Source of the DNA: Paracoccaceae bacterium | GTDB taxonomy: Bacteria; Pseudomonadota; Alphaproteobacteria; Rhodobacterales; Rhodobacteraceae | NCBI GenBank assembly: GCA_029881635.1 | Contig: JAOUMG010000006.1 | Coordinates: 1-15,718, forward strand | Direction of reading: 5' to 3' | DNA: 15,718 bases | Part shown: positions 24-15,718 of the stretch, in pieces | Layout of the letters: each line of letters starts with the position of its first letter | Numbering within the stretch: position 1 is the first letter of the stretch | Made by a program: the position numbers and the translations under genes | The notes under the pieces: generated by a model | What the model saw: only the letters and a program-made list of their open reading frames with translations | The model's database searches: none | Told to the model about the DNA's origin: nothing

Positions 24-302
24 GACGAATCCCCTCGTGTTGGCCCTTCAATACTGCGCGTTCTACGACAAACGACGGCGGATTTCGACACTGTGCGCTG
101 CCAGAGCGACTTGTCGTTCAAGGGAAAGATGGTTGTCCTATGAATTTGCCAGCATTTAACAAGGCGAAAACTCCAGCAGGCTACTGTTGAAAGGAAAAAG
201 CAACCTAATCGCCGGGGCCTGCGTCAAAGTGATGTCGTGCCGCTTGCTTGACGCTGCCGCTGGGTCTAATCTGAACCCAACAGAAGATTGGAGGGCGCAA
301 CC
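24..302. other. Intergenic region upstream of the phosphatase gene
   Basis: No convincing gene lies here. A -35-like TTGACG at 248-253 and a TTGCTT at 244-249 are followed by TCTAAT at 265-270, but the spacings (11 or 15 bp) are poor for a sigma-70 promoter, so no promoter is called. The short open frames on the minus strand lack ribosome binding sites and recognisable sequence. Confidence 0.5.
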
Positions 303-1415: not shown

Positions 1416-1515
1416 TCAGCTGTGGATTTATAGATTTCACAGGTGATTGCGGCGGCGGTCCGGAGTGTCTATCTGCAGGTCAAGCCGCAAACGACCCGAA
1501 GGGCACAAATCTCAG

Positions 1516-2244
1516 ATGGTGAAGTCACCGACAAAAAACAATTCTGGCCGCGGTGCCCGCGATCTGAGGGTTCGGGTGAAGACCGCGAAAGGGCGTAAGC
1601 TGTCTTCGACGCTCTGGCTCGAACGGCAGTTGAATGACCCTTACGTGCAACGTGCCCAAAAGGAAGGCTATCGTGGCCGCGCCGCATACAAGATCCTCGA
1701 GCTTGACGATAAATTCAGGTTTCTGGTGCCGGGCGCCCGTGTGGTTGATCTTGGCTGTGCACCGGGTGGATGGTGTCAGGTTGCCGTCACACGGGTGAAT
1801 GCCCAAGGAGTCAGGTCGAGCAAAAACCAGGGCAGGGTGCTCGGCGTTGATATTCAAGAGGTCGAACCGATTGCGGGGGCGGAAATCCACGTGCTGGACT
1901 TTTTGTCGGACGGCGCGGATGAAAAGGTTAAGGAGTGGCTGGGCAGCAAGGCCGACGTGGTGATGTCCGATATGGCTGCATCAGCGTCCGGTCATAAGGG
2001 AACGGATCACTTGCGGATCATTGCCCTTTGTGAGGCCGCGGCCCTATTCGCCTTTGATGTTCTGGAAGAGGGTGGCACTTTCGTGGCCAAGGTACTGGCC
2101 GGGGGGGCAGAGGGCGAATTGCAATTGCTTTTGAAAAAAGCGTTTACCAAAGTTACCCATGTCAAGCCGCCGGCTAGCCGGTCGGACAGTTCCGAAAAAT
2201 TCGTGATAGCCACCGGTTTCCGGGGGCGTCCGGAAATGAATTGA
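1516..2244 (+). CDS. rlmE: 23S rRNA (uridine-2552 2'-O)-methyltransferase RlmE (FtsJ/RrmJ)
   Basis: RlmE uses S-adenosylmethionine to 2'-O-methylate U2552 in the A loop of 23S rRNA during late 50S assembly. The 242-residue protein has the SAM-binding motif DLGCAPGGW (78-86) and the K-D-K-E catalytic tetrad: Lys59 (in RAAYKI), Asp152 (SDMA), Lys192 (FVAKVL) and Glu227 (SSEKF). The N-terminus is basic, with the GRGARDLRV stretch usual in alphaproteobacterial members. The reading frame is open upstream to a TTG at 1447, but homologues begin with a sequence like MVKSPT, and GAAGGG at 1498-1503 is an acceptable, slightly distant ribosome binding site, so ATG 1516 is preferred. It probably shares a transcript with the upstream phosphatase gene, and it converges on the Hint-domain gene with only 22 bp between the stop codons. 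Confidence 0.95.
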
Positions 2245-2266
2245 CGCGCCCCAAAGAGTAGTTGGT

Positions 2267-2812
2267 TTATTGGATAACGCTGACCCAAATGCCACCCACG
2301 CAGACGGTCACGGGCACCGTGCAGTGAAACTGGTAATAGGTCAGCATAGTATCCAGCTTTCGCGTGATGCCGGGCATATCCACAAGGTCGCGCGCCAGAC
2401 GAAAATCCTGACGAAACTGTACCGGGCTGACATTCACCTTTTGATGTGGCGACACGGTTAGATTGGCGATCGGCAAATTGTGCCCCAGCGCACCAGCAGA
2501 AATTGTCACCGGCCGGGCGTCGGGATGTGAATTCAGGAATTCCTCGTCAAGGTGGACCTTGTTGATCCATCCGACAGTTGCGATTGAACCTGATACGGTT
2601 CTTAGCGGGTCACGCAACCGAAGTGCCTCTATCGGCAGGTCACCGAAATTGGTGGTTACTTTGGCATTCCCGCAAAAGCCGGACAAAGTCCATTGCGTAT
2701 CCCTAACAGGAAGAGAACCTGCCGGGCGTCTGCGAGAGTAGGGATCGGTAGAAGTCGGAACGGGTTCAGGATTTCTGCCCGGAAATTGGAAATATCTATA
2801 TGTCGGTTCCAT
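2267..2812 (-). CDS. Small Hint-domain protein, eroded
   Basis: Residues 45-181 resemble the Hint (Hedgehog/intein) domains of many Rhodobacterales secreted or calcium-binding proteins. Recognisable elements are a Cys at the domain start (Cys47), GDLPIEALRLRDPLRTV (57-73), PVTISAGALG (101-110), LTVSPHQKV (118-126) and TYYQFHC (158-164). Compared with the usual pattern, the SPQHRV block reads SPHQKV, so the conserved His is displaced, and the D-x-HEVV block reads TVPVTV, so that His is lost. The protein stops right after the motif that corresponds to W-x-E-S-F, without the usual tail. It has 181 residues, a Pro/Arg-rich N-terminus and no signal peptide. The start at 2812 has only a weak purine stretch upstream. 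Self-processing activity looks doubtful; the gene may be degenerating or may have drifted to a binding role. Confidence 0.6.
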   Translation of the reverse strand: MEPTYRYFQFPGRNPEPVPTSTDPYSRRRPAGSLPVRDTQWTLSGFCGNAKVTTNFGDLPIEALRLRDPLRTVSGSIATVGWINKVHLDEEFLNSHPDARPVTISAGALGHNLPIANLTVSPHQKVNVSPVQFRQDFRLARDLVDMPGITRKLDTMLTYYQFHCTVPVTVCVGGIWVSVIQ

Positions 2813-2850
2813 ATTTACTCATTTACTCAATACGCAGTCAGTTCGCCGAC

Positions 2851-2880
2851 ATGCCGGGGCGGAGCTGCTCGCCCCGGCAT
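2851..2880. repeat. Strong GC-rich inverted repeat (11-bp stem)
   Basis: The arms ATGCCGGGGCG (2851-2861) and CGCCCCGGCAT (2870-2880) are perfectly complementary, with one further G-T pair and a six-base loop. Neither side has a T-tract, so it is not a standard intrinsic terminator in either direction. It lies 38 bp upstream of the Hint-domain start codon on the minus strand, so it could be in that gene's 5' leader, or be a REP-like element. Confidence 0.7.
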
Positions 2881-3187
2881 GAAAGCGCGGTTGTATTTGC
2901 GCTGACAACATGTCTTTCCCACCTGCACGCAAGTGGTAACAACCGCACTCGTTACATGATCAGGAGAAATTCCCGATCGGCACTTCTGATCAGAAGCGAT
3001 CCAAATCGGGCTAGCATAAGGCGGCAATACCCCAAAATCTGGTGTGAATGGTGGCGCAGATTATGGCACTTTATGTCGAATTCTCGCCTCAAGTATCCTT
3101 TGGCGAAACAATGATCCGTCTGCGAGAAGGCTACCTTCGAAAACATCGAAAGAATCGGAGCAATTGTACACGAATTGAAGCCGTTCA

Positions 3188-3203
3188 TTAACCTTACTGT
3201 AAC
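3188..3203. promoter_or_regulatory. Possible CtrA-type binding site
   Basis: The bases TTAAC-N6-GTAAC match the alphaproteobacterial CtrA consensus TTAA-N7-TTAAC except at one base of the second half. It lies in the non-coding stretch, about 330 bp upstream of tgt. Such a short motif can occur by chance and no promoter was identified next to it. Confidence 0.25.
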
Positions 3204-3298
3204 ATTTAAATGTGGCGCGACTGCCCGAATGTGGTTGTTTGCCATTTGGAAACACAGAGTTTTTGGTTAGCTCAGGAGTAAACGATTCCACCAGTTCG

Positions 3299-3317
3299 CC
3301 CATACGTTGTGTATGGG
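3299..3317. repeat. Small perfect hairpin
   Basis: CCCATAC and GTATGGG form a perfect 7-bp stem around the five-base loop GTTGT. There is no following T-tract. It lies about 220 bp upstream of the tgt start and has no assigned role. Confidence 0.4.
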
Positions 3318-3534
3318 ATTTGGGACGAAGCAATATGTTGACGCGTCTTTCATCTGAGTCGGTTGTAGATTGTCAGGAGATGATCGATTGGTTTGATGCC
3401 GCATGTGCCCAGACAAGAACGCTCGCCCAAACGAGACCGCCTACAACATAGTTAAATCCTCTCAGCTTGAGTTTCTCCTTTCAATCTCGGTGTCGGACCT
3501 AGGAATGCGCCATTGGCTGGGCTATGAGGCCGAC

Positions 3535-4665
3535 ATGACAAAGCGGATATCATTTTTCATCGCGGGTACTGAGGGACGTGCCCGGACCGGCGTGATTTCG
3601 ACGCCACGCGGCGATATCCGTACGCCGGCCTTCATGCCAGTGGGCACGGCTGCAACTGTAAAGGCGATGTTGCCGGAGAACGTTCGGGCGACGGGTGCGG
3701 ATATCCTTCTTGGCAATACCTATCACCTGATGCTGCGTCCGACCGCTGAGCGGATCGACCGGCTTGGCGGATTGCATAAGTTCATGAACTGGCAAGCGCC
3801 CATTCTGACCGATAGCGGCGGCTTTCAGGTCATGAGCCTCGCCAGCCTTAGAAAGATGAGCGAGGAAGGGGTACGGTTCAAATCGCATATCGACGGTTCT
3901 GCGCATCATCTGACTCCGGAAAGGTCGATGGAGATACAGCGGCTGCTCGGCAGCGATATCGTAATGGCCTTTGATGAATGCACCCCCTTTCCGGCCGACG
4001 AGGCGACCGCACGGGCGTCGATGGAATTGTCGATGCGCTGGGCGCAGCGGTCACGCGATGCGTTCGGCGACAGACCGGGTCACGCCTTGTTCGGTATCCA
4101 ACAAGGCAGCATCTACCGCGATCAGCGTCAGGAAAGCGCCGAAAAACTGCGCGAGATCGGCTTTGACGGCTATGCGGTTGGCGGGTTGGCAGTGGGAGAA
4201 GGGCAAGAGCAGATGTTTTCGGTTCTTGATTATGCCCCGGAAATGCTGCCAGCGGAAAAGCCGCGCTACCTGATGGGGGTCGGCAAACCCGACGACATCG
4301 TCGGCGCGGTGGAACGCGGGATTGACATGATGGACTGTGTTCTGCCTTCCCGCTCGGGGCGGACAGGGCAGGCTTTCACCCGAAGGGGTGTTGTTAACAT
4401 CAAGAATGCCCGCCATCAGGATGACCCGCGCCCACTGGACGAAGAATGTGAATGCCCCACATGTCGCGAATACTCACGCGCCTATCTCCATCATGTATTC
4501 CGGACTGGCGAAATCATCGCATCGATGCTGATGACCTGGCACAACCTGCACTATTATCAGGAACTGATGGCTGGCTTGCGCCAGGCGATAGTTGAAGGCA
4601 GGCTGGCGAATTTTGTAGCCGATTTTCATGAAACACGCGCTGAGGGTGATATCGAGCCATTGTAG
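3535..4665 (+). CDS. tgt: Queuine/preQ1 tRNA-ribosyltransferase (tRNA-guanine transglycosylase)
   Basis: Bacterial Tgt exchanges guanine-34 for the queuosine precursor preQ1 in the GUN anticodons of tRNA Tyr, His, Asn and Asp. The 376-residue protein has the usual family length. Asp93 in TDSGGFQ is the general acid/base position and Asp267 in MMDCVLP the nucleophile that forms the covalent tRNA intermediate. FDEC (146-149) and GGLAVGE (216-222) line the base pocket. Cys305, Cys307, Cys310 and His336 form the zinc site (C-x-C-x2-C, later H). ATG 3535 was chosen because GAGG at 3526-3529 precedes it by five bases and the protein then starts where homologues do; the frame stays open upstream to 3403, with another ATG at 3505 that lacks such a site. 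It is followed by lon after 179 bp, with a separate promoter likely between them. Confidence 0.96.
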
Positions 4666-4740
4666 TTGATTGAAAACGCCGAGCAAAGCTGCCCGCAATG
4701 ACAAAGCCCGGCTCTGTCAGAAGTGCTCTTGCGGGTGAGG

Positions 4741-4769
4741 TTGAAGCGTGATGGCATTCTGACTAAATA
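4741..4769 (+). promoter_or_regulatory. Candidate lon promoter
   Basis: TTGAAG at 4741-4746 and TAAATA at 4764-4769 are separated by 17 bp. That fits a sigma-70 promoter moderately and also recalls the TTGAA-type -35 element of RpoH (heat-shock) promoters. Transcription would start near 4776, leaving a leader of about 70 bases before the lon ATG. Lon is a heat-shock gene in many bacteria, which makes this plausible but not proven. Confidence 0.4.
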
Positions 4770-4844
4770 GAGTGCACGAAACGGGGAGAGCCGGATGCCG
4801 CCGAAAATCGGGGCTGGGTGTTCTCCTGCCACAAAGGAATACAA

Positions 4845-7253
4845 ATGTCTGAGAGTCTTGCCGCCAGCTATCCGGTTTTGCCGTTGCGCGATATCGTGGT
4901 TTTCCCGCATATGATCTTTCCGCTCTTTGTCGGGCGTGAGAAATCCGTGCGGGCCCTCGAAGAAGTGATGCGGGAAGACAAGCAGATATTGTTGTCGTCA
5001 CAGGTAGATCCGACGGTTGATGACCCCACGACCGAGGGGATCTATAAGGTCGGCGTTCTGGCGAATGTGCTGCAGCTTTTGAAACTGCCAGACGGCACCG
5101 TAAAGGTACTCGTCGAAGGCAAGTCGCGCGTCCGTATTGTCGAATTCATTGAAAACGAATCCTATTTTGAAGCGAAGGCAGAGCTTCTGACGGAAACATT
5201 GGGGGATGCGGCAACTGTTGAAGCGTTGTTGCGATCCGTGCCAGAAGAATTCGAGCGTTACGCCAAGATCAAGAAGAACGTTCCGGAAGAGGCGCTGGCC
5301 GCTGTTGCGGAAAGCCGCGAATCTGCGCGATTGGCAGACCTCGTGTCTGGTCACCTTGGTATAGAAGTCAGCCAGAAGCAGGAGCTGCTGGAAACGCTGG
5401 ACGTTGCTGAACGCCTGGAAAAAGTCTTTGGCCTGATGCAGGGCGAAATGTCTGTCTTGCAGGTCGAAAAGAAAATCAAGACCCGCGTCAAATCCCAGAT
5501 GGAGCGCACCCAGCGCGAATACTATCTGAACGAGCAGATGAAAGCCATTCAGAAGGAATTGGGCGACGGCGAGGAAGGCCAGAACGAGATCAATGAACTG
5601 GTTGAAAAGATCGCCAACACCAAGTTCTCCAAAGAAGCACGCGACAAGGCCGAAGCAGAGCTGAAAAAGCTCAAATCCATGTCGCCAATGTCAGCCGAGG
5701 CGACTGTTGTGCGCAACTATCTTGATTGGTTGCTGGCACTGCCATGGGGTGTCAAATCCCGGGTGAAGAAGGATTTGAACGCAGCCCAGAAAGTTCTTGA
5801 TGACGACCACTATGGCCTTGAAAAGGTCAAGGAACGGATCGTTGAATATCTTGCTGTGCAGCAACGCTCGGTCAAGATGAAGGGTCCGATCCTGTGCCTG
5901 GTCGGTCCTCCGGGGGTCGGTAAAACGTCGCTGGGCAAATCCGTGGCCCGCGCCACGGGGCGAGAATTCATTCGCATCAGTCTGGGCGGTGTGCGCGACG
6001 AATCTGAGATCAGGGGCCATAGGCGTACTTACATCGGCTCGATGCCCGGAAAAATCATTCAGGCGCTTAAGAAAGCGAAAACCACCAACCCGCTGATCTT
6101 GCTGGATGAGATTGACAAGATGGGTCAAGATTTTCGGGGCGATCCGGCAAGTGCCATGCTTGAGGTGCTGGATCCGGAACAGAATGCCACCTTCGTGGAT
6201 CACTATCTGGAAGTCGAATATGACCTTTCCAATGTGATGTTTTTGACCACAGCCAACAGCTACAACATGCCGTCCCCCTTGCTGGACCGGATGGAGATCA
6301 TTCCGCTCGCCGGATACACCGAGGACGAAAAGCGTGAGATTGCCAAACAGCATCTGATCCCCAAGCAGATCAAGAACCATGGCTTGCGCAAGCAAGAGTT
6401 TCGTCTGTCGGACGCTGCCCTGCAAGAGATCATCCGCACCTACACGCGCGAAGCCGGTGTGCGAAATCTGGAGCGCGAAATCTCCAAATTGGCGCGCAAG
6501 GCGCTGACACGGATTGTCCGCAAGGATACCGAACGGGTGGAAATCACGCCGGAGCAACTGGAAGAATTTCTGGGTGTCAAACGGTTCCGTTACGGTTTGG
6601 CCGAACAGGAGGATCAGATCGGTGTTGTCACCGGTCTGGCATGGACCTCTGTCGGAGGCGATCTTCTGTCGATCGAGGCATTGCAGTTGCCGGGCAAGGG
6701 CCGGATGAAGACGACCGGCAAGCTGGGCGATGTGATGAAGGAAAGCATTGATGCGGCCGCGAGTTTTGTGCGCTCCATCAGCCCGGAAATCGGTGTGAAG
6801 CCACCGCGGTTTGAAAAGGTTGATATTCACGTTCACGTGCCAGAAGGGGCGACCCCCAAGGACGGTCCTTCTGCGGGTGTGGCGATGGTAACCTCCATCG
6901 TATCGGTCCTGACCCAGATCCCGGTGCGCAAAGACATCGCGATGACCGGTGAGGTGACTTTGCGCGGCAATGTCCTGGCTATCGGTGGTTTGAAAGAAAA
7001 ACTTTTGGCGGCACTGCGAGGCGGTATCAAAACGGTTTTGATCCCGCAAGAAAACGCAAAGGACCTGACCGAAATCCCCGACAACGTAAAATCGGGGCTG
7101 GAAATCATCCCGGTATCGCATGTCCGGGAGGTTCTCAAACTTGCCTTGTTGCGTGTTCCCGAACCAATTGTTTGGGACGCCGAAGCAGAGGAAGCCGCTG
7201 CCAACGCAGCGGTCAAGGGTAGTGGTGACGGGACGACCGCCACAACACATTAA
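4845..7253 (+). CDS. lon: ATP-dependent protease Lon (LonA)
   Basis: Lon is a cytoplasmic hexameric AAA+ serine protease that unfolds and degrades misfolded and regulatory proteins. The 802-residue product has the N-terminal LAN substrate-binding domain (from about residue 7, PVLPLRDIVVFP), a helical coiled region, the AAA+ module with Walker A GPPGVGKT (354-361) and Walker B LILLDEID (417-424), and a C-terminal protease domain with the Ser676-Lys719 dyad (KDGPSAGVAM and GGLKEKLLAA). All match the E. coli spacing. ATG 4845 has AAGGA at 4834-4838 six bases upstream; a GTG at 4818 in the same frame would add nine unlikely residues. The C-terminal tail after about 785 is Ala/Gly/Thr-rich and variable. 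It is followed by an HU-like gene, the same neighbour type that lon has in E. coli. The gene appears intact. Confidence 0.98.
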   Translation: MSESLAASYPVLPLRDIVVFPHMIFPLFVGREKSVRALEEVMREDKQILLSSQVDPTVDDPTTEGIYKVGVLANVLQLLKLPDGTVKVLVEGKSRVRIVEFIENESYFEAKAELLTETLGDAATVEALLRSVPEEFERYAKIKKNVPEEALAAVAESRESARLADLVSGHLGIEVSQKQELLETLDVAERLEKVFGLMQGEMSVLQVEKKIKTRVKSQMERTQREYYLNEQMKAIQKELGDGEEGQNEINELVEKIANTKFSKEARDKAEAELKKLKSMSPMSAEATVVRNYLDWLLALPWGVKSRVKKDLNAAQKVLDDDHYGLEKVKERIVEYLAVQQRSVKMKGPILCLVGPPGVGKTSLGKSVARATGREFIRISLGGVRDESEIRGHRRTYIGSMPGKIIQALKKAKTTNPLILLDEIDKMGQDFRGDPASAMLEVLDPEQNATFVDHYLEVEYDLSNVMFLTTANSYNMPSPLLDRMEIIPLAGYTEDEKREIAKQHLIPKQIKNHGLRKQEFRLSDAALQEIIRTYTREAGVRNLEREISKLARKALTRIVRKDTERVEITPEQLEEFLGVKRFRYGLAEQEDQIGVVTGLAWTSVGGDLLSIEALQLPGKGRMKTTGKLGDVMKESIDAAASFVRSISPEIGVKPPRFEKVDIHVHVPEGATPKDGPSAGVAMVTSIVSVLTQIPVRKDIAMTGEVTLRGNVLAIGGLKEKLLAALRGGIKTVLIPQENAKDLTEIPDNVKSGLEIIPVSHVREVLKLALLRVPEPIVWDAEAEEAAANAAVKGSGDGTTATTH

Positions 7254-7285
7254 CTATAGCCTGTAGGCAATTGATATTAAATTGA

Positions 7286-7310
7286 ACATGGCGCCGGTAT
7301 GGCGCCGTGT
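7286..7310 (+). terminator. Hairpin downstream of lon, possible terminator
   Basis: A 10-bp stem (one G-T pair) is formed by bases 7286-7295 and 7301-7310 around a five-base loop; its core is the self-complementary GGCGCC occurring twice. It starts 33 bp after the lon stop. The following bases, CACGTATTGT, are not a real T-tract, so termination would be weak or it may serve to stabilise the 3' end of the mRNA. Confidence 0.45.
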
Positions 7311-7464
7311 CACGTATTGTCAGATCTGGACGAGAATTCATGTTCCAGGGGACTGTTACTCCTTTGTCAGTTTAGTGGTGCCGTATAGGGATGAGTCTGA
7401 CCGTTTCGAATGGGCAGAGCCCTACGGTAGCTGTTCGGAAAATTAGGAAAATTATCTCGATCAG

Positions 7465-7493
7465 TGGTGGATTGTGTAAATTCTGGTTATAAT
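7465..7493 (+). promoter_or_regulatory. Candidate promoter of the HU-like gene
   Basis: A perfect -10 hexamer TATAAT lies at 7488-7493, with a poor -35 (TGGTGG, 7465-7470) 17 bp upstream. Transcription would begin near 7500. That would exclude the in-frame ATG at 7492 as a start codon and support the ATG at 7531. Confidence 0.45.
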
Positions 7494-7530
7494 GTTGGGA
7501 AGGAATAAACCACAAAAGGGCAGTCGAGAA

Positions 7531-7974
7531 ATGACAACCAAGAAATCAACGACCACTCGGGCAAAATCCACAGCGGCCAAACCCGCCAAAAAAGCCGCAC
7601 CGCGGTCAACGCCAAAGGCAATCTCGGAAAAGACCACAACTCTGGTCAAGGAGCAGGAGACCGAAGACACATCTTTGACGGTCGAACTGCAGCCAGTTCT
7701 GCGTAAGAAAGAGCTTTTTGAGCGTGTGGTAACCCTGTCGGGAGCTAAAAAGCGCGACGTCAAAGCAATTGTCGAGGCGACATTGCAAGTTTTGGGGGAT
7801 TCGCTTGCCGCAGGTGAATCATTGGCCTTGCCACCCTTCGGCCGTGCCAAGGTGAATCGTCAGAAAGACCTCGCATCGGGCGAGATGATGATGGTACGCT
7901 TGCGCCGAACCGCCGAGAATGCCGAAGGTGGGATCGCGCCTGCCAATGCTGCTCTTGCCGAGACAGACCAATAG
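7531..7974 (+). CDS. Atypical HU/IHF-family DNA-binding protein with basic N-terminal tail
   Basis: Residues 57-127 resemble the HU/IHF fold: LRKKELFERVV, then DVKAIVEATLQVLGDSLAAGESLALPPFGRAKV, where HU has I-x-GFGTF. HU-type proteins are dimeric nucleoid proteins that bend DNA. Two things are odd. First, some 50 residues rich in Lys, Ala and Thr precede the fold, resembling histone-H1-like or HU-extended tails. Second, the stretch after PPFGRAKVNRQKD is short: the long flexible DNA-binding arm with its R-N-P motif is missing or much reduced. The protein has 147 residues against about 90 for standard HU. ATG 7531 fits a start downstream of the TATAAT at 7488-7493 and has AAAGGG at 7515-7520 ten bases upstream. 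The gene lies after lon and 19 bp before tRNA-Val, which may be read from the same transcript. Confidence 0.8.
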   Translation: MTTKKSTTTRAKSTAAKPAKKAAPRSTPKAISEKTTTLVKEQETEDTSLTVELQPVLRKKELFERVVTLSGAKKRDVKAIVEATLQVLGDSLAAGESLALPPFGRAKVNRQKDLASGEMMMVRLRRTAENAEGGIAPANAALAETDQ

Positions 7975-7993: not shown

Positions 7994-8068
7994 GGGTGAT
8001 TAGCTCAGTGGTAGAGCGCTTCGTTCACATCGAAGATGTCAGGGGTTCAAATCCCTTATCACCCACCA
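7994..8068 (+). tRNA. tRNA-Val, anticodon CAC
   Basis: The sequence folds as a full cloverleaf of 75 nt with encoded CCA. The acceptor arms GGGTGAT (7994-8000) and ATCACCC (8058-8064) pair perfectly, followed by discriminator A8065 and CCA at 8066-8068. The D arm is GCTC/GAGC. The anticodon stem CTTCG/CGAAG (8019-8023 and 8031-8035) encloses the loop TTCACAT, giving anticodon CAC at 8026-8028, which reads the Val codon GUG. The T arm carries GGTTCAAAT. It starts 19 bp after the HU-like gene. Confidence 0.96.
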
Positions 8069-8099: not shown

Positions 8100-8888
8100 C
8101 TAGCTTAGGGTCTTACGGGCCCTGAGATGCGTAGGGCAATGTTCGCCCGAGTTCAGAACAACCAGCATCTTTCCCCAGATGCCGATGTTTTCGTCAACGA
8201 ATTCTTGGCCAACGATGCTGGCGGCTTTATGGCCGATCGGTCCCTTTAGCCGTGCAAGTTCGGTTTTGGCTGTTTCCTTGTACCATTCGTTGCGGCTGAC
8301 AACCTCGATATCGGTAAAACCCGCAGCTTTCATCGCGTCGGCATATCTTTTCCCCGAGGCCATGCCGAAGTCCAAGCCTTCGGATGCAATGTATTCGGCC
8401 ATTTCCGGGCTGGGTGTCCCGTCATGCCCGATGAGCCAATCTGACGCTACGAACCGGCCACCAGGTTTCAGCACTCGAAATACTTCGCGCATCAAGGCAT
8501 GTTTGTCAGGGATATGAACAATGGAATCCTTGGAAAAGACGATATCGAAAGTATCGGGAGGAAAGGGCAAAGGACCCGGCACTACTTTGAGGCAACCAAT
8601 GCGCGGGGTCAGGTTTACGGCACTGATCAGCTCGCGCGCGCGCGATAGAACAGTGTCCTCCACATCAATCCCGCAGACATATGCGGCGCCATGGTTTTGC
8701 ACCAAGGCCATGTCGATGCCACCGGCACCGCATCCGACATCTAGCACATTCGCACCGGTGAAATCAGTGCCCGCCACCAGCCGGGCGATTTCGTCCGGAC
8801 CGCCTGGGGATAGGAACCCGGTTCCCCAGATTGCTTCCAACATGCCGATCAGCTTGCTGTGATAGAGCTCACCGCCTTCTGCTTCCAT
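8100..8888 (-). CDS. SAM-dependent methyltransferase, phosphoethanolamine N-methyltransferase-like
   Basis: This 262-residue class I methyltransferase has the SAM-binding motif VLDVGCGAGG (48-57), an acidic residue ending the next strand in CGIDVED, and SKDSIVHIPDK plus VLKPGGRFVASDW further on. The block GTGFLSPGG before motif I, the S-K/R-D-x-I-x-H-I-x-D-K motif, and the later stretch with TPSPEMAEYI resemble plant-type phosphoethanolamine N-methyltransferases (PMT) from memory of that family; glycine/sarcosine methyltransferases are an alternative. It is the last gene of the transporter-oxygenase operon, 41 bp after the cupin gene, with AAGGA seven bases before the ATG. The likely role is methyl transfer to a small amine or acid connected to the imported compound; the substrate is unknown. 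No intrinsic terminator follows, and its stop lies 31 bp from the convergent tRNA-Val. Confidence 0.8.
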   Translation of the reverse strand: MEAEGGELYHSKLIGMLEAIWGTGFLSPGGPDEIARLVAGTDFTGANVLDVGCGAGGIDMALVQNHGAAYVCGIDVEDTVLSRARELISAVNLTPRIGCLKVVPGPLPFPPDTFDIVFSKDSIVHIPDKHALMREVFRVLKPGGRFVASDWLIGHDGTPSPEMAEYIASEGLDFGMASGKRYADAMKAAGFTDIEVVSRNEWYKETAKTELARLKGPIGHKAASIVGQEFVDENIGIWGKMLVVLNSGEHCPTHLRARKTLS

Positions 8889-8929
8889 GGTGTTTTCCTT
8901 TCAGCTTCGGTGGATTGATAGGACGGTGC

Positions 8930-9823
8930 TTACGTACCCAGATGCAATGCTTCGAGTTCGGGCCAGTCATTGGCCGGAATGACATGCGCGATTTCCTCCA
9001 CATCGCGGGTCCAGCCGTAAATACACAAGAACGGCGTTGGGCCAACTTTGGTCATATGGGGGGCGAGCGGCTCATTCCAGACCGGCTCATGCGCCGGTTT
9101 GATGATCAGCGGTTGATCAGGTCCAAATCGCCAGCCATGCGGGCCTGTCAGTGGTGCGTAAAGCTCGGGCGCCGGATGGTAGTGATCACGGTAAAGAATA
9201 TGCGGCGAGATCAAAAACAAGCCCAGATCGAATTCTTTTGCCGGTATCGGCGCACCGTGCCCGATGAGAGGGGCGAAGGCGTGGTTGTGCAGGAAACTCT
9301 CGCCGATTTTTTCGGGCGGATATTCATCATAGGTGATCCATTTCAGATGCGGCGTTGTTTCGGCGATGACCGCAGCAAGAGCCGGATGGCTGACTGAAAG
9401 TTCGGAAAGCGCAGTTTCCAGGTAACGGCCCACCAGCGCATTGGCGGGCGGTGGCACCAGTTTTACATCCCCGTGTCTGTGCCGCGCGATGCCGCTTCGA
9501 ACCTCTGCCACGCCTGGCCCGGCCAATTCGCCCAGATAGCGGTCCACTTCCTCCACCAGCAGCCGCAACCTCAGCGCAGGGTCAATCGGCCGCTCTGGCA
9601 GCAAGCTGAGCTTGATGCCACGCTGGCTAAGCAAGGTCGCCGGATCTTCGGCGTCATCGGCAGAACAAATGCGGTAAACCTCCAGCGCGTCGTCGGAGAT
9701 CAGGCCTTGACGGTTGAAGTACATCGCCGCTGCATAGCGCAGGCGGCCCGATCCCGGCTGGCCGAATGCAGTCTGCAGATGCGCAAGTGCGCGTTGATCC
9801 TTCTCTGATGTCTGGTTCGGCAT
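8930..9823 (-). CDS. DMSP-lyase-like cupin (DLL superfamily), long form
   Basis: The C-terminal half is a cupin with the metal site of dimethylsulfoniopropionate (DMSP) lyases of the DddQ/DddL type: Tyr211, His214, His216, Glu220, Tyr222 (Y-R-D-H-Y-H-P-A-P-E-L-Y) and, on the second motif, His256 (in APHMTKVG), followed by FLCIYGWTRDV. The spacing of the first five residues equals that recalled for DddQ (Y120, H123, H125, E129, Y131). Those enzymes cleave DMSP to dimethyl sulfide and acrylate, with a metal and a Tyr base. The protein has 297 residues; DddQ and DddL are about 200-230, so an extra N-terminal, probably helical region of roughly 100 residues is present. Many cupins of this superfamily are not DMSP lyases. 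ATG 9823, 7 bp after the permease stop, was chosen over an ATG at 9862 that would overlap the permease gene by 32 bp; its ribosome binding site is weak, so coupling to the upstream gene is likely. Confidence 0.75.
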   Translation of the reverse strand: MPNQTSEKDQRALAHLQTAFGQPGSGRLRYAAAMYFNRQGLISDDALEVYRICSADDAEDPATLLSQRGIKLSLLPERPIDPALRLRLLVEEVDRYLGELAGPGVAEVRSGIARHRHGDVKLVPPPANALVGRYLETALSELSVSHPALAAVIAETTPHLKWITYDEYPPEKIGESFLHNHAFAPLIGHGAPIPAKEFDLGLFLISPHILYRDHYHPAPELYAPLTGPHGWRFGPDQPLIIKPAHEPVWNEPLAPHMTKVGPTPFLCIYGWTRDVEEIAHVIPANDWPELEALHLGT

Positions 9824-9830
9824 GATACGG

Positions 9831-10670
9831 CTACTTGTTATCCCGATAGGCCAGTTGTGCATCCAGTTCGCGCCGTCGTTCGGCGCGATTCAGCAGCCAT
9901 CCGGCGATTGCGACCCCGATGCCGACGATCAGAACCGTAATTGTCGCCAGCGCGTTGATGTCGGGGGTTACCCCGAGTTTCACCTTCGACCAGATCAGAA
10001 TGGGAAGGGTTGTAGCGCCGGGGCCAGTGGTGAAATTGGTTATCACGACGTCATCGAGCGAGATCGTGAATGCCAAAAGCCAGCCGGACAGAATGGCGGG
10101 TGAAATAACGGGTAAGGTAATGTCCTTCATTACCTGCCAGGGGCGCGAGCCAAGATCCATCGCTGCCTCTTCGATATCATCGTCGGCTTGTACCAAGCGC
10201 GAATGAACGATGGTGGTCACGAAAACCATAGAAAAGGTGATATGGGCGAGAGTGACGGTGGTGAACCCGCGCTTTGACGGCCAGCCCAGGTATTCCGCCA
10301 TCAGGATGAACAGCATCAATGAAGCGATGCCGGTAATCACCTCGGGCATGACCAGAGGTGCGGTCACGAGGCCGGAAAACAATGTTCGCCCGCGAAATTT
10401 CTTGAACCTGGCCAAGGCAATACCGGCCATGGTTCCCAATATCGTCGCCATGGTGGCACTGACAACGGCGATCTTGATCGACAATATTGCAGCGGCCAGA
10501 ACCTGTTTGTTTGAAAACAGAGAAATATACCACTTGGTGGAAAACCCGCCCCAGACAGTGGCAAGGCGCGATCCGTTGAACGAATAGACCATCATCGACA
10601 GGATCGGGATGTAAAAGAATGCGAACCCGAAACAAAGCATCGTGATCAAGAAGACAGGGCGGCGGTTCAT
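9831..10670 (-). CDS. ABC transporter permease, PotI/PotC-like
   Basis: This inner-membrane permease of a spermidine/putrescine-type importer has 279 residues with about six membrane segments (roughly 9-31, 60-85, 99-124, 138-157, 191-212 and 240-261). The EAA loop that contacts the ATPase is EEAAMDLGSRPWQVMKDITLP (near 167-187). The sequence resembles PotI, including the start MNRRP, FAFFYIPILSMMVYSFN and the SLDDVVITNFTTGPG stretch. Its ATG overlaps the stop of the other permease gene as ATGA (10667-10670), implying translational coupling and a heterodimer with that protein. The substrate is set mainly by the binding protein and is not known. Confidence 0.92.
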   Translation of the reverse strand: MNRRPVFLITMLCFGFAFFYIPILSMMVYSFNGSRLATVWGGFSTKWYISLFSNKQVLAAAILSIKIAVVSATMATILGTMAGIALARFKKFRGRTLFSGLVTAPLVMPEVITGIASLMLFILMAEYLGWPSKRGFTTVTLAHITFSMVFVTTIVHSRLVQADDDIEEAAMDLGSRPWQVMKDITLPVISPAILSGWLLAFTISLDDVVITNFTTGPGATTLPILIWSKVKLGVTPDINALATITVLIVGIGVAIAGWLLNRAERRRELDAQLAYRDNK

Positions 10671-11617
10671 GCGTCTGCCCCCCCACTGCTCTTGATCTTC
10701 TCATGGGCCTTGCCGTCGAAGTAGGTATAGACCATCAGCGGAACCACCAGCAAAAGCAGCAAAGCCACGGCAACCGCAGAAGCCATGGGCCAATCACGGG
10801 CCGAAGCAAATTCATCCGAGATAACTCTGCCAATCATCGGTCTGGAGGAAGACCCGACAAGTGACGGAATGATCAATTCGCCAGAAGCGGGAATGAAGAC
10901 CAGCATGCTGCCGGCAATGATGCCGGGTACCGATTGCGGTAATGTCACATCCAGAAAGACGCGTGATGGGCGTGAACCAAGATCCATCGCCGCTTCGTTA
11001 AGTGTGAAATCGAGTTTTTCGAGGTTGGCAAAAAGCGGCAGGATCATGAATGGCAGGTAGGAATATACCGTGACAAGAACGACCGCAAAATTGGTGTTCA
11101 TCATCGGAATATAGCGCAGCGCATCTTCCGCCGGCACCAGATAGTTATAGCCCGAAGTGATCAGCTTGTTGAACCAGCTGTTGGTGCCCATCAGCCCCAT
11201 CCAAGCGTAAACGCGCAAAAGAAACGAGGTCCAGAATGGCAAGATCACCAGCATCAGCAAAATGTTGCGCCAGGATTTGCTGACGCGGGTAAGCCCGAGC
11301 GCCATCGGATAGCCGATGAGAAGACACATCAGCGTTGCGATGACCGCGTTGAAAATCGATGTCAGGTAGGCGCGAATATATAGGCTGTCTTCGACCAACC
11401 GGTGATAGGTCCGTGTATTCAAAAGCGGATAGTCGCCACCAAAGGAAAAGGGAGGGGCGGTAGGGGTGCGGGTCGCGAAGCTCATCGCCAGGACGATGGC
11501 GAAAGGCAGAAGGAAAAACAGGATCAACCAGACATAGGGCGTGGCGATGGTAATCTTGATCCAACCTCGACGATTGAACCAGCGTTGAAAACGGCTGTCG
11601 TGATGTGGCTCGTTCAT
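10667..11617 (-). CDS. ABC transporter permease, PotH/PotB-like
   Basis: This is the first permease of the importer: 316 residues, an N-terminal cytoplasmic stretch, and about six membrane segments (roughly 22-46, 83-107, 118-141, 176-198, 232-253 and 280-300). The EAA loop is NEAAMDLGSRPSRVFLDVTLP (near 207-227). The motifs LPFWTSFLLRVYAWMGL and FIPASGELIIPSLVGS are typical of PotH/PotB. The start is three bases after the ATPase stop, with AAGGA seven bases upstream, so it belongs to the same transcript. Together with the PotI-like protein it should form the channel of a cation-type (polyamine or onium) importer. Confidence 0.93.
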   Translation of the reverse strand: MNEPHHDSRFQRWFNRRGWIKITIATPYVWLILFFLLPFAIVLAMSFATRTPTAPPFSFGGDYPLLNTRTYHRLVEDSLYIRAYLTSIFNAVIATLMCLLIGYPMALGLTRVSKSWRNILLMLVILPFWTSFLLRVYAWMGLMGTNSWFNKLITSGYNYLVPAEDALRYIPMMNTNFAVVLVTVYSYLPFMILPLFANLEKLDFTLNEAAMDLGSRPSRVFLDVTLPQSVPGIIAGSMLVFIPASGELIIPSLVGSSSRPMIGRVISDEFASARDWPMASAVAVALLLLLVVPLMVYTYFDGKAHEKIKSSGGADA

Positions 11618-11620
11618 CGG

Positions 11621-12778
11621 TCAATCCTTCAGCAGAATTGCTGAATTAGGATCGAAGGAAAGCCAGACTTCATCTTCCCAATCTGCGACGCGCTCATTTT
11701 CACCGATACGGCGCGCATTGACCGAATTTACCGAAACAATATGCCCCGAGGGCAAAGCGACACGGTAAAGCGAGTCCTTTCCAAAATAGGCAAGGTCCCG
11801 CACGATACCACGAATGCTGTTGGCGCTTTGGGGGTTTGTGCGCGAAATTGTCAGTTTTTCTGGGCGGATAGCCAGCGAAATCTGCGCGCCGTCCTCAATA
11901 CCCTCCACGCTGCGCGCCTCGATATCACCGCCAAATTCAGGGACATGGACCCGTGTGGTGGTATCGCCAATCGAAACTACCTTGCCGTCAAAGATATTAA
12001 TTGAGCCGATGAAACCGGCCACAAAGCGGCTTTGCGGATATTCATAAACACTGGTGGCGGTCCCGATCTGCATTATCCGGCCCTTGTCCATCACCGCAAG
12101 CCGCGACGAGAGTGTCATCGCCTCTTCCTGATCGTGGGTGACGACGATGAAAGTGGTGCCGGTTTTGTCCTGAATATCCATCAGTTCGAACTGTGTATGT
12201 TCGCGCAGTTTCTTGTCGAGCGCCGCCAATGGTTCATCAAGCAACAGCAGTTTCGGTTGGCGGGCCAGTGCGCGCGCCAGAGCGACCCGCTGACGTTGGC
12301 CACCTGAGATCTGATGAGGTTTGCGCGCCGCAAAATCGGTAAGCTGAACAAGATCCAGCATGTTGCGCACGCGGTCGTCCCGTTGGGCGGCGGTCATGCG
12401 TTCATGTTTCAGGCCATAGGCTATGTTTTTGGCCACTGTCATATGCGGGAACAGCGCATAGGACTGAAACATCATATTCACGGGGCGTTCGTAAGGTGGC
12501 AGGTCGGTCATATCCTGACCGTCAATGTAGATGCGACCGGCAGTCGGTTCTTCGAACCCGGCAAGCATCCGCAGCAATGTGGTTTTGCCACAACCCGAAC
12601 CGCCGAGAAGGGAGAAAATTTCCCCCTTCTCGATTTCCAGTGTGACAGAGTTGACTGCGGTGAAACTGCCAAATTTCTTGGTGACGCCCTCGATCCGGAT
12701 GAAGGATGGTTCTGCACTTTTTTTTACCGACGCAGATTGTAAATCTGCGTCGATGGTTATGGCAGGTATGTCAGTCAT
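11621..12778 (-). CDS. ABC transporter ATP-binding protein, PotG/PotA-like
   Basis: The ATPase powers the importer on the cytoplasmic face of the membrane. Visible elements in the 385-residue protein are Walker A GGSGCGKTT (59-67), the Q loop (Gln105), the ABC signature ISGGQ (157-161, with Ile in place of the usual Leu), Walker B LLLLDEP (177-183), the D loop AALD (185-188) and the switch His215. From about residue 265 there is a TOBE-type regulatory domain, as in PotA/PotG. About 25 non-conserved residues precede the nucleotide-binding domain; their coding DNA carries an 11-bp perfect hairpin and a run of eight A. GGAG lies upstream of the ATG, at a spacing of about 11 bases. The gene follows the binding-protein gene after 53 bp. 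Confidence 0.95.
   Translation of the reverse strand: MTDIPAITIDADLQSASVKKSAEPSFIRIEGVTKKFGSFTAVNSVTLEIEKGEIFSLLGGSGCGKTTLLRMLAGFEEPTAGRIYIDGQDMTDLPPYERPVNMMFQSYALFPHMTVAKNIAYGLKHERMTAAQRDDRVRNMLDLVQLTDFAARKPHQISGGQRQRVALARALARQPKLLLLDEPLAALDKKLREHTQFELMDIQDKTGTTFIVVTHDQEEAMTLSSRLAVMDKGRIMQIGTATSVYEYPQSRFVAGFIGSINIFDGKVVSIGDTTTRVHVPEFGGDIEARSVEGIEDGAQISLAIRPEKLTISRTNPQSANSIRGIVRDLAYFGKDSLYRVALPSGHIVSVNSVNARRIGENERVADWEDEVWLSFDPNSAILLKD
12718..12752 (-). repeat. Perfect hairpin and A8 tract inside the start of the ATPase gene
   Basis: On the coding strand the 11-bp arms CGACGCAGATT and AATCTGCGTCG enclose the loop TAC (12728-12752), and two bases later comes a run of eight A (12718-12725) in the codons GTA-AAA-AAA-AGT. 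The element lies 27-61 bases into the coding sequence. It is not a terminator in either direction, because no T-run follows the stem. A stable stem this close to a start codon could lower translation of the ATPase, and the A-run could allow polymerase slippage. Confidence 0.6.
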
Positions 12779-12831
12779 TTCAACGATATCTCCGTCAATC
12801 TTAACAAGGGCGTCAATTGGCTATCCGTTGT

Positions 12832-13935
12832 TCAGCCGGATTTGATCGTCTGCCATGCGCGGGTAATTGCGCGGTCCTGTTCTTCGGAGAATGGTTTGGG
12901 TGCCCACATCCGCGCGATGGTCTCTGCATCCGGGTAGACCGCCGGATCATTGAGAACCTCAGGCAGCACAAACTCCCGCGATGGGATATTGGCATTGGCG
13001 TAGTAGGTGTAGTTTGTACAACCTGCCGCCACTTCCGGATCCATCATGAAGTTCATGAACTTGTAGGCGTTGTCGCGGTTTGGCGCATCCGACGGGATGG
13101 CCATGCAGTCAACCCATGCCGGGGCACCGGTTTTCGGAACGAAATAGGCCAGATTGATCTCGACCCCAGCTTCGGCCGCACGGCCCGCGGCGGTAGCATA
13201 GTCGCCTGACCAATTGTTGATGGCGCAAAGTTCACCGTTCGGAATTGCATTTAGGTAGTTGGTGTTGTCGAAGGTGCGGATGTATTCACGGATCGGTTTG
13301 AACGCCTCAACCACCTTGTCGTAATCCGCAACATTCGTCGTGTCGCCGTCAAGCCCGAGGTACTTCAATACCATCAGCATGATGTCGGTCGGGCTGTCGA
13401 GGATCGAGATACCGCAATCGGCCAACAAGACCGCGTTTTCGGGTTTGAAGATCAGATCCATCGAGGACATGTCGGCGTCCGGGATGCGTTCCTTGACCAT
13501 ATCGACATTATAGGTGAAGCCGACTGAACCCCACATATATGGCATGCCATATTGGTTGCCCTCATCCCAGCCCGCAAGAATACGCAGGATTTCGGGATCA
13601 AGATTGACCCAGTTGGGCAGCAATGCCTTGTCCAGCTTTTCATAAATTCCGGCAGCGATGGCACGGGGCATGTCGATGCCTGCGTGATCAACAACATCAT
13701 ACCCGCTTGATCCGGCCAGCATCTTTGCCTGCATTTCTTCCGCGGAAGAATAGGTGTCATAGACGACGCCGATACCGGTGGCGGCCTCAAAGTCCTGAAG
13801 TGTGGTTTCCCCGATGTAGTCCGCCCAGTTATAAACATTGACTGTCCCGGACTGAGCCCAGGAAGGGCGGACATAGGGCATGGCCAGGGCTGCGCCAATG
13901 GCGGTGAGAGTGGTACGTCTGGTGACGTTTTTCAT
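12832..13935 (-). CDS. Periplasmic binding protein of a PotF-like ABC importer
   Basis: This 367-residue protein resembles the putrescine-binding protein PotF along its whole length. The N-terminus has a Tat-like signal: TRRTTL (5-10), a hydrophobic stretch and a likely cleavage site after SWA (25-27), so it is exported to the periplasm. Compared by memory alignment with E. coli PotF, Trp37 and Asp39 (NWADY), Trp242 and Asp245 (NWSGD) and Asp276 (AWVD) match residues of the binding pocket, and Asp184 replaces a Glu. The Ser of PotF position 85 reads Ala and the aromatic residue next to Asp276 reads Val. A cationic ligand is thus likely but need not be putrescine. A strong GAGGAG precedes the start by about nine bases, consistent with the high expression binding proteins need. 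It follows the Rieske gene after 37 bp. Confidence 0.92.
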   Translation of the reverse strand: MKNVTRRTTLTAIGAALAMPYVRPSWAQSGTVNVYNWADYIGETTLQDFEAATGIGVVYDTYSSAEEMQAKMLAGSSGYDVVDHAGIDMPRAIAAGIYEKLDKALLPNWVNLDPEILRILAGWDEGNQYGMPYMWGSVGFTYNVDMVKERIPDADMSSMDLIFKPENAVLLADCGISILDSPTDIMLMVLKYLGLDGDTTNVADYDKVVEAFKPIREYIRTFDNTNYLNAIPNGELCAINNWSGDYATAAGRAAEAGVEINLAYFVPKTGAPAWVDCMAIPSDAPNRDNAYKFMNFMMDPEVAAGCTNYTYYANANIPSREFVLPEVLNDPAVYPDAETIARMWAPKPFSEEQDRAITRAWQTIKSG

Positions 13936-13972
13936 TTCTTCTTCTCCTCTGTTGGTCTCTTTTTTCGTTTAG

Positions 13973-15193
13973 TTAAGCAGTATTTTTTGTATCGCGAAAC
14001 ATTTCCTTGTTGGTTGCGTTGATTTTGTCTTCGTCGGGTGCGTCAGGCAGTTTCACGACCGGCAGAATTCGCCTGATCTGATCGTGATGGGCGCGGACGC
14101 CATATTCCATGTCTGACAGATGAAAGCCGTCAAATGCAGTCGATTTCATCGACTCGTTGGACCAGATCGACAACTGTTGGTCTTCGGCCGAGGTTTCGCG
14201 GTCGATGCGGTAGGCCAGATAGCGCGCGGCGCGCATTTCGCGGGTTTCATGCGCCCGGCGATAGATGCGACCCGTAACACGTGTTTCCGTCAAGGATATC
14301 GGGATGTCCTGGTAGAACTGCGCGCTTTCAGGGGTGAAGGCGATCACGGCATTGGGAAAAACGCCGTAATAGGTCCAGGCCTTGCGCAAGTTGGCTGGCA
14401 GCCATTCAAGCGGTTGTGAGGTTTCGATATACTTGCGCACCGACCAGCGCCGACCTGGCTGATCGCCGAAGACGGCATGAGAGCTGGTTAAACCCCCCGG
14501 ATGAACTCGATCATGGTAGCTGCGACCGTAAAGATCCTGCAGCGCGGGATGGGCCATCGCGACGTGATACCCTTCGTTGTCGACATCGCGCACCGATTTC
14601 CAGTTTACCGGCAATACAGCACCCCAGCCCGGCGCCTCTGCGGGCAGGAGCTCATGCGCGCGGTATCCGGTGAATTCATCGTCATAGTCCGCGAGCATGG
14701 TTTTGACCGGCGGTTGATCGCTGGGCAGAAACCGAATGAAAATGAAGCCGTGCCAGATTTCCATTTCAATCGGCTTCAGCCCGAAATCCTTGCGATCGAA
14801 GTCACCAAACGTCTCGGGACGCGAAGGTCCCCTCAAGGTGCCATCAAGGTTATAAACCCACCCGTGGAAGGGGCAGATCATCGCGTTCTTGCAATGCCCG
14901 GCAGCACCATCCGCAAGTCTGGCTCCCCGGTGGCGGCAAAGATTGTGAAAGGCCCTCACCTCACCGTCTTTCCCCCGCATAATGAGGGCGCGTTCGTCGA
15001 GAATGTCGAATGTCAGCCAATCGCCGGGTGCGGGCAAATCATTGATATGACCGGCGATTTGCCATGACTTCAGGAAAAGCTCGGTTTTTTCGAGATCGAA
15101 TAGCGCGGGCGAATGATAGGTCCAACCGGGAAGACCGCTGCGATCCCAATTCTTCGGTACAGTCTGGGTTTTCATTGTTAGGGGCTTATTCAT
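13973..15193 (-). CDS. Rieske non-heme iron oxygenase, alpha subunit (quaternary-amine oxygenase type)
   Basis: The 406-residue protein has an N-terminal Rieske [2Fe-2S] domain with Cys86-x-His88 and Cys107-x2-His110 (CRHRG and CPFHGW), and a C-terminal catalytic domain whose mononuclear iron ligands are probably His210, His215 (NEGYHVAMAH) and Asp338. The residue three before the first His, which bridges electrons between centres, is Glu207. In enzymes such as carnitine oxygenase CntA and glycine betaine monooxygenase GbcA this position is also Glu, while classical aromatic-ring dioxygenases have Asp. That favours oxidation or demethylation of a quaternary-amine-like compound. ATG 15193 overlaps the previous gene's stop as ATGA and has GGAG eight bases upstream, so the two are coupled. 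A partner reductase is needed but is not in the window. The exact substrate is unknown. Confidence 0.88.
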   Translation of the reverse strand: MNKPLTMKTQTVPKNWDRSGLPGWTYHSPALFDLEKTELFLKSWQIAGHINDLPAPGDWLTFDILDERALIMRGKDGEVRAFHNLCRHRGARLADGAAGHCKNAMICPFHGWVYNLDGTLRGPSRPETFGDFDRKDFGLKPIEMEIWHGFIFIRFLPSDQPPVKTMLADYDDEFTGYRAHELLPAEAPGWGAVLPVNWKSVRDVDNEGYHVAMAHPALQDLYGRSYHDRVHPGGLTSSHAVFGDQPGRRWSVRKYIETSQPLEWLPANLRKAWTYYGVFPNAVIAFTPESAQFYQDIPISLTETRVTGRIYRRAHETREMRAARYLAYRIDRETSAEDQQLSIWSNESMKSTAFDGFHLSDMEYGVRAHHDQIRRILPVVKLPDAPDEDKINATNKEMFRDTKNTA

Positions 15194-15718
15194 GTCTTGT
15201 CTCCGGGTAGTGCCGCCATCTGGGCGCGCACCCATTGATGAAAATGGTGAATGTCAAACTCCTGCGGCATCAGCCGCGCTTGTCGAAAGCGTTGGGACCT
15301 CAGGCCGCGCTGGTTCATTTCGCAGGCCAAACCATCCTGTTGCATGACGATCGTAGCGAACTCTGCGACCTGTTCCGCCGAGAAACCGGGTTGTGCCAAC
15401 GTTTCTTCGGAGAAAAGCCATTCCGCTTTCAGACGCGTTCGCTCCGGGCCCATCGGGGTCAGTGTGACGCAGCGGACATGGTCAATGTGGGCAATGATAT
15501 ACATCGTCGGGTAAACCGTGACGAAGTTGAAACCATTCGCCCGCTCATCAGGGGTCAGGTCGGGAAACTCCGGCCCGCAAGGGGCACCTGTCATCGTCCA
15601 GGATCGCGCACCCTCTTTCAGCGCAGGTGGGTTGGGCGTATCCGGTGTCCAGCCTTGGGATTCTTGCGCGGACATGATGCCTTTGCGGTAGATTGGTACC
15701 ATGTCGCACAATTCCGGG
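15190..15718 (-). CDS. Second Rieske oxygenase alpha subunit, C-terminal part only
   Basis: The frame is open to the window edge, so the N-terminal Rieske domain lies outside. The visible 175 or so residues begin with P-E-L-C-D-M-V-P-I-Y-R-K-G, the segment that in GbcA/choline-oxygenase-like Rieske proteins follows the iron-binding His pair. They continue with GFNFVTVYPTMYIIAHIDHV and the VMQQDGLACEMNQRGLRS motif, whose Asp (in QQD) is the likely third iron ligand. The end FDIHHFHQWV is typical of the family. The apparent TTG at 15709-15711 is an internal Leu codon, not a start. The TGA overlaps the ATG of the next Rieske gene by four bases. Two adjacent alpha-type genes are unusual: they could form one mixed oligomer or act on successive intermediates. 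Confidence 0.85.
   Translation of the reverse strand, partial: PELCDMVPIYRKGIMSAQESQGWTPDTPNPPALKEGARSWTMTGAPCGPEFPDLTPDERANGFNFVTVYPTMYIIAHIDHVRCVTLTPMGPERTRLKAEWLFSEETLAQPGFSAEQVAEFATIVMQQDGLACEMNQRGLRSQRFRQARLMPQEFDIHHFHQWVRAQMAALPGDKT

Follow-up and report, generated by a model that had tools for sequence, protein, structure and literature searches.

Which compound would call for two Rieske oxygenases of the quaternary-amine type, a polyamine-type importer, a dimethylsulfoniopropionate (DMSP)-lyase-like cupin, and a methyltransferase in one gene run? The question is raised by eight genes at positions 8100–15718 of a 15,718-nucleotide stretch of DNA from a Paracoccaceae bacterium (hereafter the window), all on the minus strand according to the list of open reading frames (ORFs) and Pfam/NCBIfam matches. 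These eight genes form the downstream end of a longer operon of twelve genes plus a regulator, in the order AT3-FAD1-FAD2-AMT-RO1-RO2-potFGHI-cupin-MT (Table 1). Our preferred reading, to which we assign a probability of roughly 0.5, is that they form one TetR/BetI-type-regulated catabolic operon for a polyamine-like, N-methylated, probably quaternary small cation, for example a trimethylated diamine. The computed evidence comprises protein families, gene order, conservation, co-occurrence, and conserved active-site and ligand residues.

Extent and gene order of the operon

The window is contig C82 of an assembly of 3.14 Mb in 682 contigs (completeness 89.57%), and its end truncates RO1, leaving 175 of 382 codons inside. 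Bases 1–126 of contig C543 coincide with window positions 15592–15717; the gene run therefore continues onto C543, from which the Rieske half of RO1 was read. The joined RO1 is 382 residues long and free of stops, and relatives carry the gene unbroken. Further upstream on C543 lie AMT, FAD2, FAD1, and AT3, followed by a divergent TetR/BetI-type gene. At the contig break, which falls inside RO1, window base 15718 is G and its counterpart (G000:C543:127) is A.

The initial annotation had taken the unit to be eight same-strand genes separated by −4 to 53 bp. The spacing is confirmed given internal ATG starts at 15193 (RO2) and 9823 (cupin), the longest ORFs instead producing larger overlaps; the extent gives way to twelve genes and a regulator once C543 is included. 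Such spacing suggests a single transcript, and a promoter scan near the AT3 start found none. Because other genera show the same order, the arrangement is not due to chance.

Conservation and co-occurrence across genomes

Matches were counted over 198 genomes of the family (Paracoccaceae, as inferred from its member G104), the window's own included. For FAD1, we used the 23 matches at ≥59% identity among 27 at E ≤ 1e-100, dropping four at 39–40%; for RO1, 17 at ≥53% among 19 at E ≤ 1e-80, dropping two (38% and 46%). The cupin profile gave 13 matches at E ≤ 1e-20: nine full-length proteins with an N-terminal helical domain (N-domain), three with the cupin only, and one with the N-domain only. 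AT3 was found in 8 genomes and MT in 27. One TGA was flagged in each of three matches (RO1 of G034 and G148; AT3 of G175), and those of G034 and G175 lie in stop-free frames in their stretches.

The genes co-occur far above expectation, and this co-conservation upholds the earlier proposal of a functional unit. FAD1 and MT share 20 genomes (3.1 expected), which is 20 of the 23 FAD1 genomes; MT occurs without FAD1 in seven genomes and FAD1 without MT in three. FAD1 coincides with RO1 in 16 genomes (2.0 expected) and with AT3 in 7 (0.9 expected). Among the nine genomes with the fused cupin, all nine carry RO1 (0.8 expected), eight carry FAD1 (1.05 expected), and seven carry AT3 (0.4 expected). 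Hypergeometric P values range from 9e-7 to 1e-18; they take no account of relatedness, and the genome from which the search started is counted in. AT3, the fused cupin, and the rest of the set occur together in 7 of 198 genomes (G000, G034, G068, G093, G104, G155, and G175), with the G155 set split over two contigs and G104 read from the Fuscovulum ytuae plasmid with the same coordinates. This pattern ties AT3 and the fused cupin to one sub-branch of loci.

Gene maps were drawn from 26 stretches (L045–L070), with 15 of hits H1–H74 examined. Four stretches (L045, L046, L047, and L049) keep the whole order from AT3 to the cupin, and in L067/L068 it runs across two contigs. MT comes next in L045 and L047; in G068 and G175 it occupies another place, and no MT match turned up in G155. 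A cupin scan yielded 26 loci. The F. ytuae plasmid reads AT3-FAD1-FAD2-AMT-RO1-RO2-potFGHI-CUP-amidohydrolase-MT, and three Defluviimonas loci (Paracoccaceae) run from FAD1, at the flank end, through MT and the amidohydrolase; the window has no amidohydrolase gene between cupin and MT. A Hyphomicrobiales metagenome-assembled genome (MAG) contig, L008, starts in RO2 and runs to the cupin, amidohydrolase, and MT. L007 combines RO1-RO2-CUP with a diverged ABC system, MT, AMT, and flavoproteins, and L012 is a contig end with a partial cupin and MT; the remaining cupin-scan loci lack this set.

In two loci, L048 and L050, the set lacks AT3 and the cupin gene is cut down to its N-domain. In midpoint-rooted FastTree phylogenies, L048 falls within the fused clade for FAD1 (support 0.993), and the cupin domain and AT3 were therefore probably lost there; the FAD1 and RO2 trees place L050 apart from the fused clade, and the AMT tree sets it next to L046. 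A wider set of loci—L052–L064, Parasedimentitalea L035, Rhizobium L036, Shinella L032/L041, and Ensifer L034—shares FAD1 (58–73% identity), FAD2, AMT, and Pot-like ABC genes and has no cupin. A TetR gene is present in nearly all of these stretches and MT, another aminotransferase, and Rieske genes in many; some related loci also carry an old yellow enzyme (OYE)-type flavoprotein. Since the cupin is missing from this wider family, it is probably not the family's shared last step. The Shinella aminotransferase was considered as an AT3 orthologue and set aside at just 27% identity over 311 residues. FAD1 relatives at 35–43% identity sit in other contexts without the set (four plasmid loci, L037–L040).

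Importer and enzymes of the set

The initial annotation had read a PotFGHI-like importer, two quaternary-amine-type Rieske proteins, and a DMSP-lyase-like cupin, and all three assignments hold: the first through gene order and pocket residues, the second through ligand motifs and a bridging Glu, and the third through its PF16867 match and DddQ active-site positions. The importer genes of Escherichia coli are ordered potF-G-H-I, and the window keeps that order. Its PotF, aligned over 342 columns with the chain of an engineered E. coli PotF, matches at 142 of them. In the passages of PMC8666671 that deal with the PotF pocket, D39 and D247 are the proximal residues and W37 and W244 form the box, with D278 a further pocket residue. 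All five are present in the window PotF and, where covered, in each of the 13 other orthologues (L048 lacks positions 37–39, L008 lacks 182–185), which makes the importer polyamine-type. Differences from the E. coli putrescine importer are a Trp at position 276, as in PotD; an Asp at 185; Ala for S38 in 9 of 13 covered rows; and replacement of S85 in 11 and S87 in all of 14 orthologues (window counted). The wider-set binding proteins (19 rows, in which L007 and L051 are one contig bearing a fused cupin) retain W37, W244, W276, and D185, with Gly, Thr/Ser, and Cys in place of D39, D247, and D278. The window-type pocket would thus suit a polyamine-like dication better than DMSP or a plain betaine, and the wider-set proteins may bind a singly charged onium. 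The earlier statement that no substrate is favored by the sequence can be refined accordingly.

The bridging Glu that replaces Asp is a mark of quaternary-amine Rieske monooxygenases, and both oxygenases combine it with C-x-H/C-x-x-H motifs: C83/H85, C104/H107, and E199 in RO1; C100/H102, C121/H124, and E221 in RO2 (each set in at least 95% of 19 rows). The best Protein Data Bank (PDB) match of RO2 is CntA (6y9c, 115 bits), and those of RO1 are 3n0q (134 bits), 3vca (130 bits), and 4qup (130 bits), of which 3vca is the stachydrine demethylase Stc2. Like CntA (6y8j) and 3vca, RO1 and RO2 have Rieske and catalytic domains and a Glu at the bridging position; unlike them, they are two paralogues in one operon (29% identity across 208 residues) with no adjoining reductase gene.

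FAD1 and FAD2 belong to the Amino_oxidase/CrtO superfamily and are 33% identical to one another, and AT3 is HemL/GntE-like. For AMT, the best matches are the folate domain of trimethylamine N-oxide (TMAO) demethylase (Tdm; 165 bits) and GcvT (152 bits); the protein aligns nearly end to end and carries DDGTLFR, and the core DDGTLF stands in 31 of 33 aligned rows and DDGTIF in the other 2. It differs from Tdm in being free-standing, without the Tdm N-terminal part.

The cupin (CUP) exceeds the PF16867 gathering score of 27 bits more than twofold (Table 1). Its AlphaFold2 model (mean predicted local distance difference test score, pLDDT, 88.8) retrieves DddQ as all top six Foldseek matches, with template-modeling (TM) scores of 0.71–0.74 by target length and 15–20% identity; a DddQ Y131A mutant appears among the titles. 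Residues Y224, H227, H229, E233, Y235, H269, and W284 align to DddQ active-site positions, presumably Y120, H123, H125, E129, Y131, H163, and W178; across 17 sequences six are invariant and H269 is conserved in at least 90%. What sets CUP apart from DddQ, besides that low identity, is its company of Rieske, Pot, and aminotransferase genes and its extra helical domain at about residues 25–83. This domain recurs as a separate small gene after AMT in four Rhizobiaceae loci (two from one species) and persists in L048 and L050. A search with the stand-alone L032 copy found no Pfam match at E ≤ 5, with filters removing most weak matches, and the domain appears to be undescribed and unnamed.

According to the title of Lei et al. 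(2018), the DMSP-lyase-like cupin family includes enzymes of unknown function. A class-wide search found a cupin match in 8 of 385 genomes, the fused form only in the window's genome and the other seven without the N-domain. Other members of the family were consulted as clues to the substrate, and their varied neighborhoods were uninformative. In Sinorhizobium meliloti and Ensifer (L042:8926-9594, L043:8725-9396) the cupin lies between ABC transporter binding-protein and permease genes; in Phaeobacter and Leisingera it adjoins CoA ligase, hydroxyacyl-CoA dehydrogenase, and thiolase genes; on a Mesorhizobium plasmid it stands alone near an oxidoreductase and conjugation genes. One MAG contig has two adjoining DMSP-lyase-like cupin ORFs (L010:139-1394).

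The nearest solved relatives of MT are phospho(methyl)ethanolamine N-methyltransferases (PMTs), including the plant PMT 5wp5. A Tyr-His dyad characterizes phosphoethanolamine methyltransferase. MT retains the His of the SKDSIVHI/SRDTILHI motif, and Leu replaces the motif Tyr in 27 of 27 rows (L007 and L051 being the same contig). The earlier label of a PMT-like methyltransferase is supported, with the Tyr-His dyad itself incomplete.

Table 1. Coordinates of the operon genes and of stand-alone N-domain genes (window positions unless a contig or locus is named; PotG, PotH, and PotI cut-offs are NCBIfam putrescine equivalog values)
Feature	Position	Strand	Basis or remark
MT, S-adenosylmethionine (SAM)-dependent methyltransferase	8100..8888	-	Methyltransf_11 70 bits; PDB 5wp5 131 bits
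CUP, DMSP-lyase-like cupin with N-terminal helical domain	8930..9862	-	PF16867 64.2 bits; likely start Met14 (9823)
potI-like ABC permease	9831..10670	-	PRK10592 PotI 325 bits, under cut-off 476
potH-like ABC permease	10667..11617	-	PRK10683 PotH 292 bits, under cut-off 489
potG-like ABC ATPase	11621..12778	-	PRK11607 PotG 433 bits, under cut-off 613; TIGR01187 (polyamine ATPase) 387.5 bits, above cut-off 355.6
potF-like periplasmic binding protein	12832..13935	-	PDB PotF 7oyv 315 bits
RO2, Rieske oxygenase alpha subunit, carnitine-monooxygenase-like	13973..15235	-	Rieske + Ring_hydroxyl_A; likely start 15193
RO1 C-terminal part, Rieske oxygenase alpha subunit	15190..15718	-	Ring_hydroxyl_A; continues on C543
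AMT	C543 (locus L003) 757-1953	-	GcvT-like folate protein
FAD2	C543 (L003) 1950-3518	-	Amine-oxidase/CrtO-like flavoprotein
FAD1	C543 (L003) 3496-5109	-	Amine-oxidase/CrtO-like flavoprotein
AT3	C543 (L003) 5106-6458	-	Aminotransferase, class III
TetR/BetI-type regulator	C543 (L003) 6630-7328	+	Under BetI cut-offs
Stand-alone N-domain protein, ~80 residues	L032:10010-10255		Directly after aminomethyltransferase gene
Stand-alone N-domain protein, ~80 residues	L041:14386-14631		Directly after aminomethyltransferase gene
Stand-alone N-domain protein, ~80 residues	L036:17388-17639		Directly after aminomethyltransferase gene
Stand-alone N-domain protein, ~80 residues	L034 about 10001-10192		Directly after aminomethyltransferase gene

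A tRNA-Val gene (anticodon cac; 7994–8068, plus strand) lies between an HU-like gene and MT, abutting the downstream end of the operon, and is possibly an insertion site. Window positions 288–7974 are mainly housekeeping, encoding a Ppx/GppA phosphatase, an FtsJ-type methyltransferase, a Hint_2 protein, queuine tRNA-ribosyltransferase, Lon protease, and the HU-like protein.

Candidate pathway and competing readings

From these results we infer the substrate, the order of steps, the regulation, the role of MT, and every reaction step. PotFGHI would take up a methylated, polyamine-like cation. RO1 and RO2 would hydroxylate its N-methyl groups with release of formaldehyde, FAD1 and FAD2 would oxidize the partly demethylated amine, and AMT would capture the formaldehyde on tetrahydrofolate. 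AT3 would remove the primary amino group by transamination, and the cupin would β-eliminate an onium or amine leaving group from the β-substituted product, as DddQ does dimethyl sulfide (DMS) from DMSP. The gene order had earlier been taken to suggest the order of reactions; it cannot be read that way. FAD1, FAD2, AMT, and the small helical domain may cooperate. A bolder version, which we regard as improbable, makes the cupin the nitrogen counterpart of DMSP lyase: after the AT3 step it would eliminate a trialkylamine from the β-ammonio product of a methylated diamine, breaking C–N rather than C–S, and the helical domain would couple it to FAD1, FAD2, and AMT.

Several observations weigh against the catabolic reading. 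At the level of loci, L065 (G077) reads TetR-RO1-RO2-potFGHI-CUP without FAD1, FAD2, AMT, or AT3; L051 (G129) has a fused cupin and lacks AT3; in L066 (G124), where the cupin is missing, TetR-AT3 is accompanied by MT-like pieces; and cupins about 50% identical that lack the N-domain sit outside such operons (L009, L011, and L031). D39, D247, and D278 are missing not only from the wider-set binding proteins but also from the fused-cupin locus L051. At the level of families, RO2 reaches 134 of the 670 bits of the GbcA equivalog cut-off and the window part of RO1 scores 29 bits; AMT misses the cut-offs of all eight NCBIfam models, AT3 those of both GntE and HemL, and the TetR protein those of BetI (NCBIfam). 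The four importer proteins likewise miss the putrescine equivalog cut-offs (PotF 335 against 636; the others in Table 1), so the importer is filed as polyamine-type rather than as a putrescine importer. It is not obvious where a methyl-adding MT would fit into a demethylation pathway, and no aldehyde dehydrogenase is among the genes seen. A dedicated Rieske reductase was not seen in the 89.6%-complete genome on a search with PF00970, other reductase families lying outside that search; its two matches read as NqrF-like and Fpr-like.

A substrate of the betaine or alkyl quaternary ammonium type (carnitine-, stachydrine-, or aromatic-betaine-like), with the PotF residues merely inherited, would suit the proximity of RO2 to CntA and of RO1 to 3vca, as well as related loci whose binding protein has the Trp box without amine-clamping aspartates, some of them with the OYE-type flavoprotein. 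We consider it unlikely: window-type orthologues from several genera retain the clamping aspartates where covered, and AT3 accompanies the cupin in seven of nine genomes. The DddQ-like active site and fold, together with an AcuI-family gene (TIGR02823) above cut-off in the genome, speak for a sulfonium substrate instead—DMSP-amine, an S-methylmethionine-derived compound, or another DMSP relative—whose amine AT3 would convert to an aldehyde, leaving the cupin to act as a true DMSP lyase yielding DMS and acrylate. That too seems rather improbable, given that a pair of N-demethylase-like Rieske proteins and an AMT resembling Tdm indicate N-methyl groups and that the cupin is so distant from the DddQ structures; DmdA-type methyl transfer by AMT was itself rejected (118 bits against the NF009133 cut-off of 410).

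Two further readings change the purpose of the operon. MT is the commonest of the four FAD1 partners tested, as would suit a biosynthetic or salvage operon in which MT would methylate a polyamine taken up from outside and the remaining genes would tailor it; but the combination of importer, two oxygenases, folate-linked one-carbon capture, aminotransferase, and BetI-type regulator suggests catabolism. Neither an export gene nor a ligase gene is among those seen, and we judge this reading very unlikely. Plain putrescine or spermidine utilization with unrelated passenger genes would account for the strong PotF similarity and the class III aminotransferase. It is hardly probable, as passengers are not expected to hold one order across genera and neither polyamine offers N-methyl groups to the Rieske and AMT enzymes.

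Catabolism of an N-methylated, polyamine-like cation thus remains our preferred reading. In keeping with the earlier view that no described pathway has this combination, we recognized no paper describing the operon among those listed by searches of open-licence full text, most subscription papers lying outside those searches; the passages of PMC5770400 and PMC10203303 retrieved do not describe it. Homarine catabolism was considered as a candidate with reference to a 2026 Nature Microbiology paper cited in PMC13390433. The component families are all known, and it is the combination, the fused domain, and the context of the cupin that appear to be undescribed.

In the sea, large pools of nitrogen and sulfur consist of methylated amines and sulfonium compounds. 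If true, the nitrogen-lyase version would give one branch of the DMSP-lyase-like family a physiological role and define a pathway for methylated polyamines. The co-inherited 12-gene context makes the function of one such branch testable and brings to light an unnamed domain that also stands by itself in Rhizobiaceae loci, and the operon hints at a route by which bacteria handle N-methylated, polyamine-like compounds.

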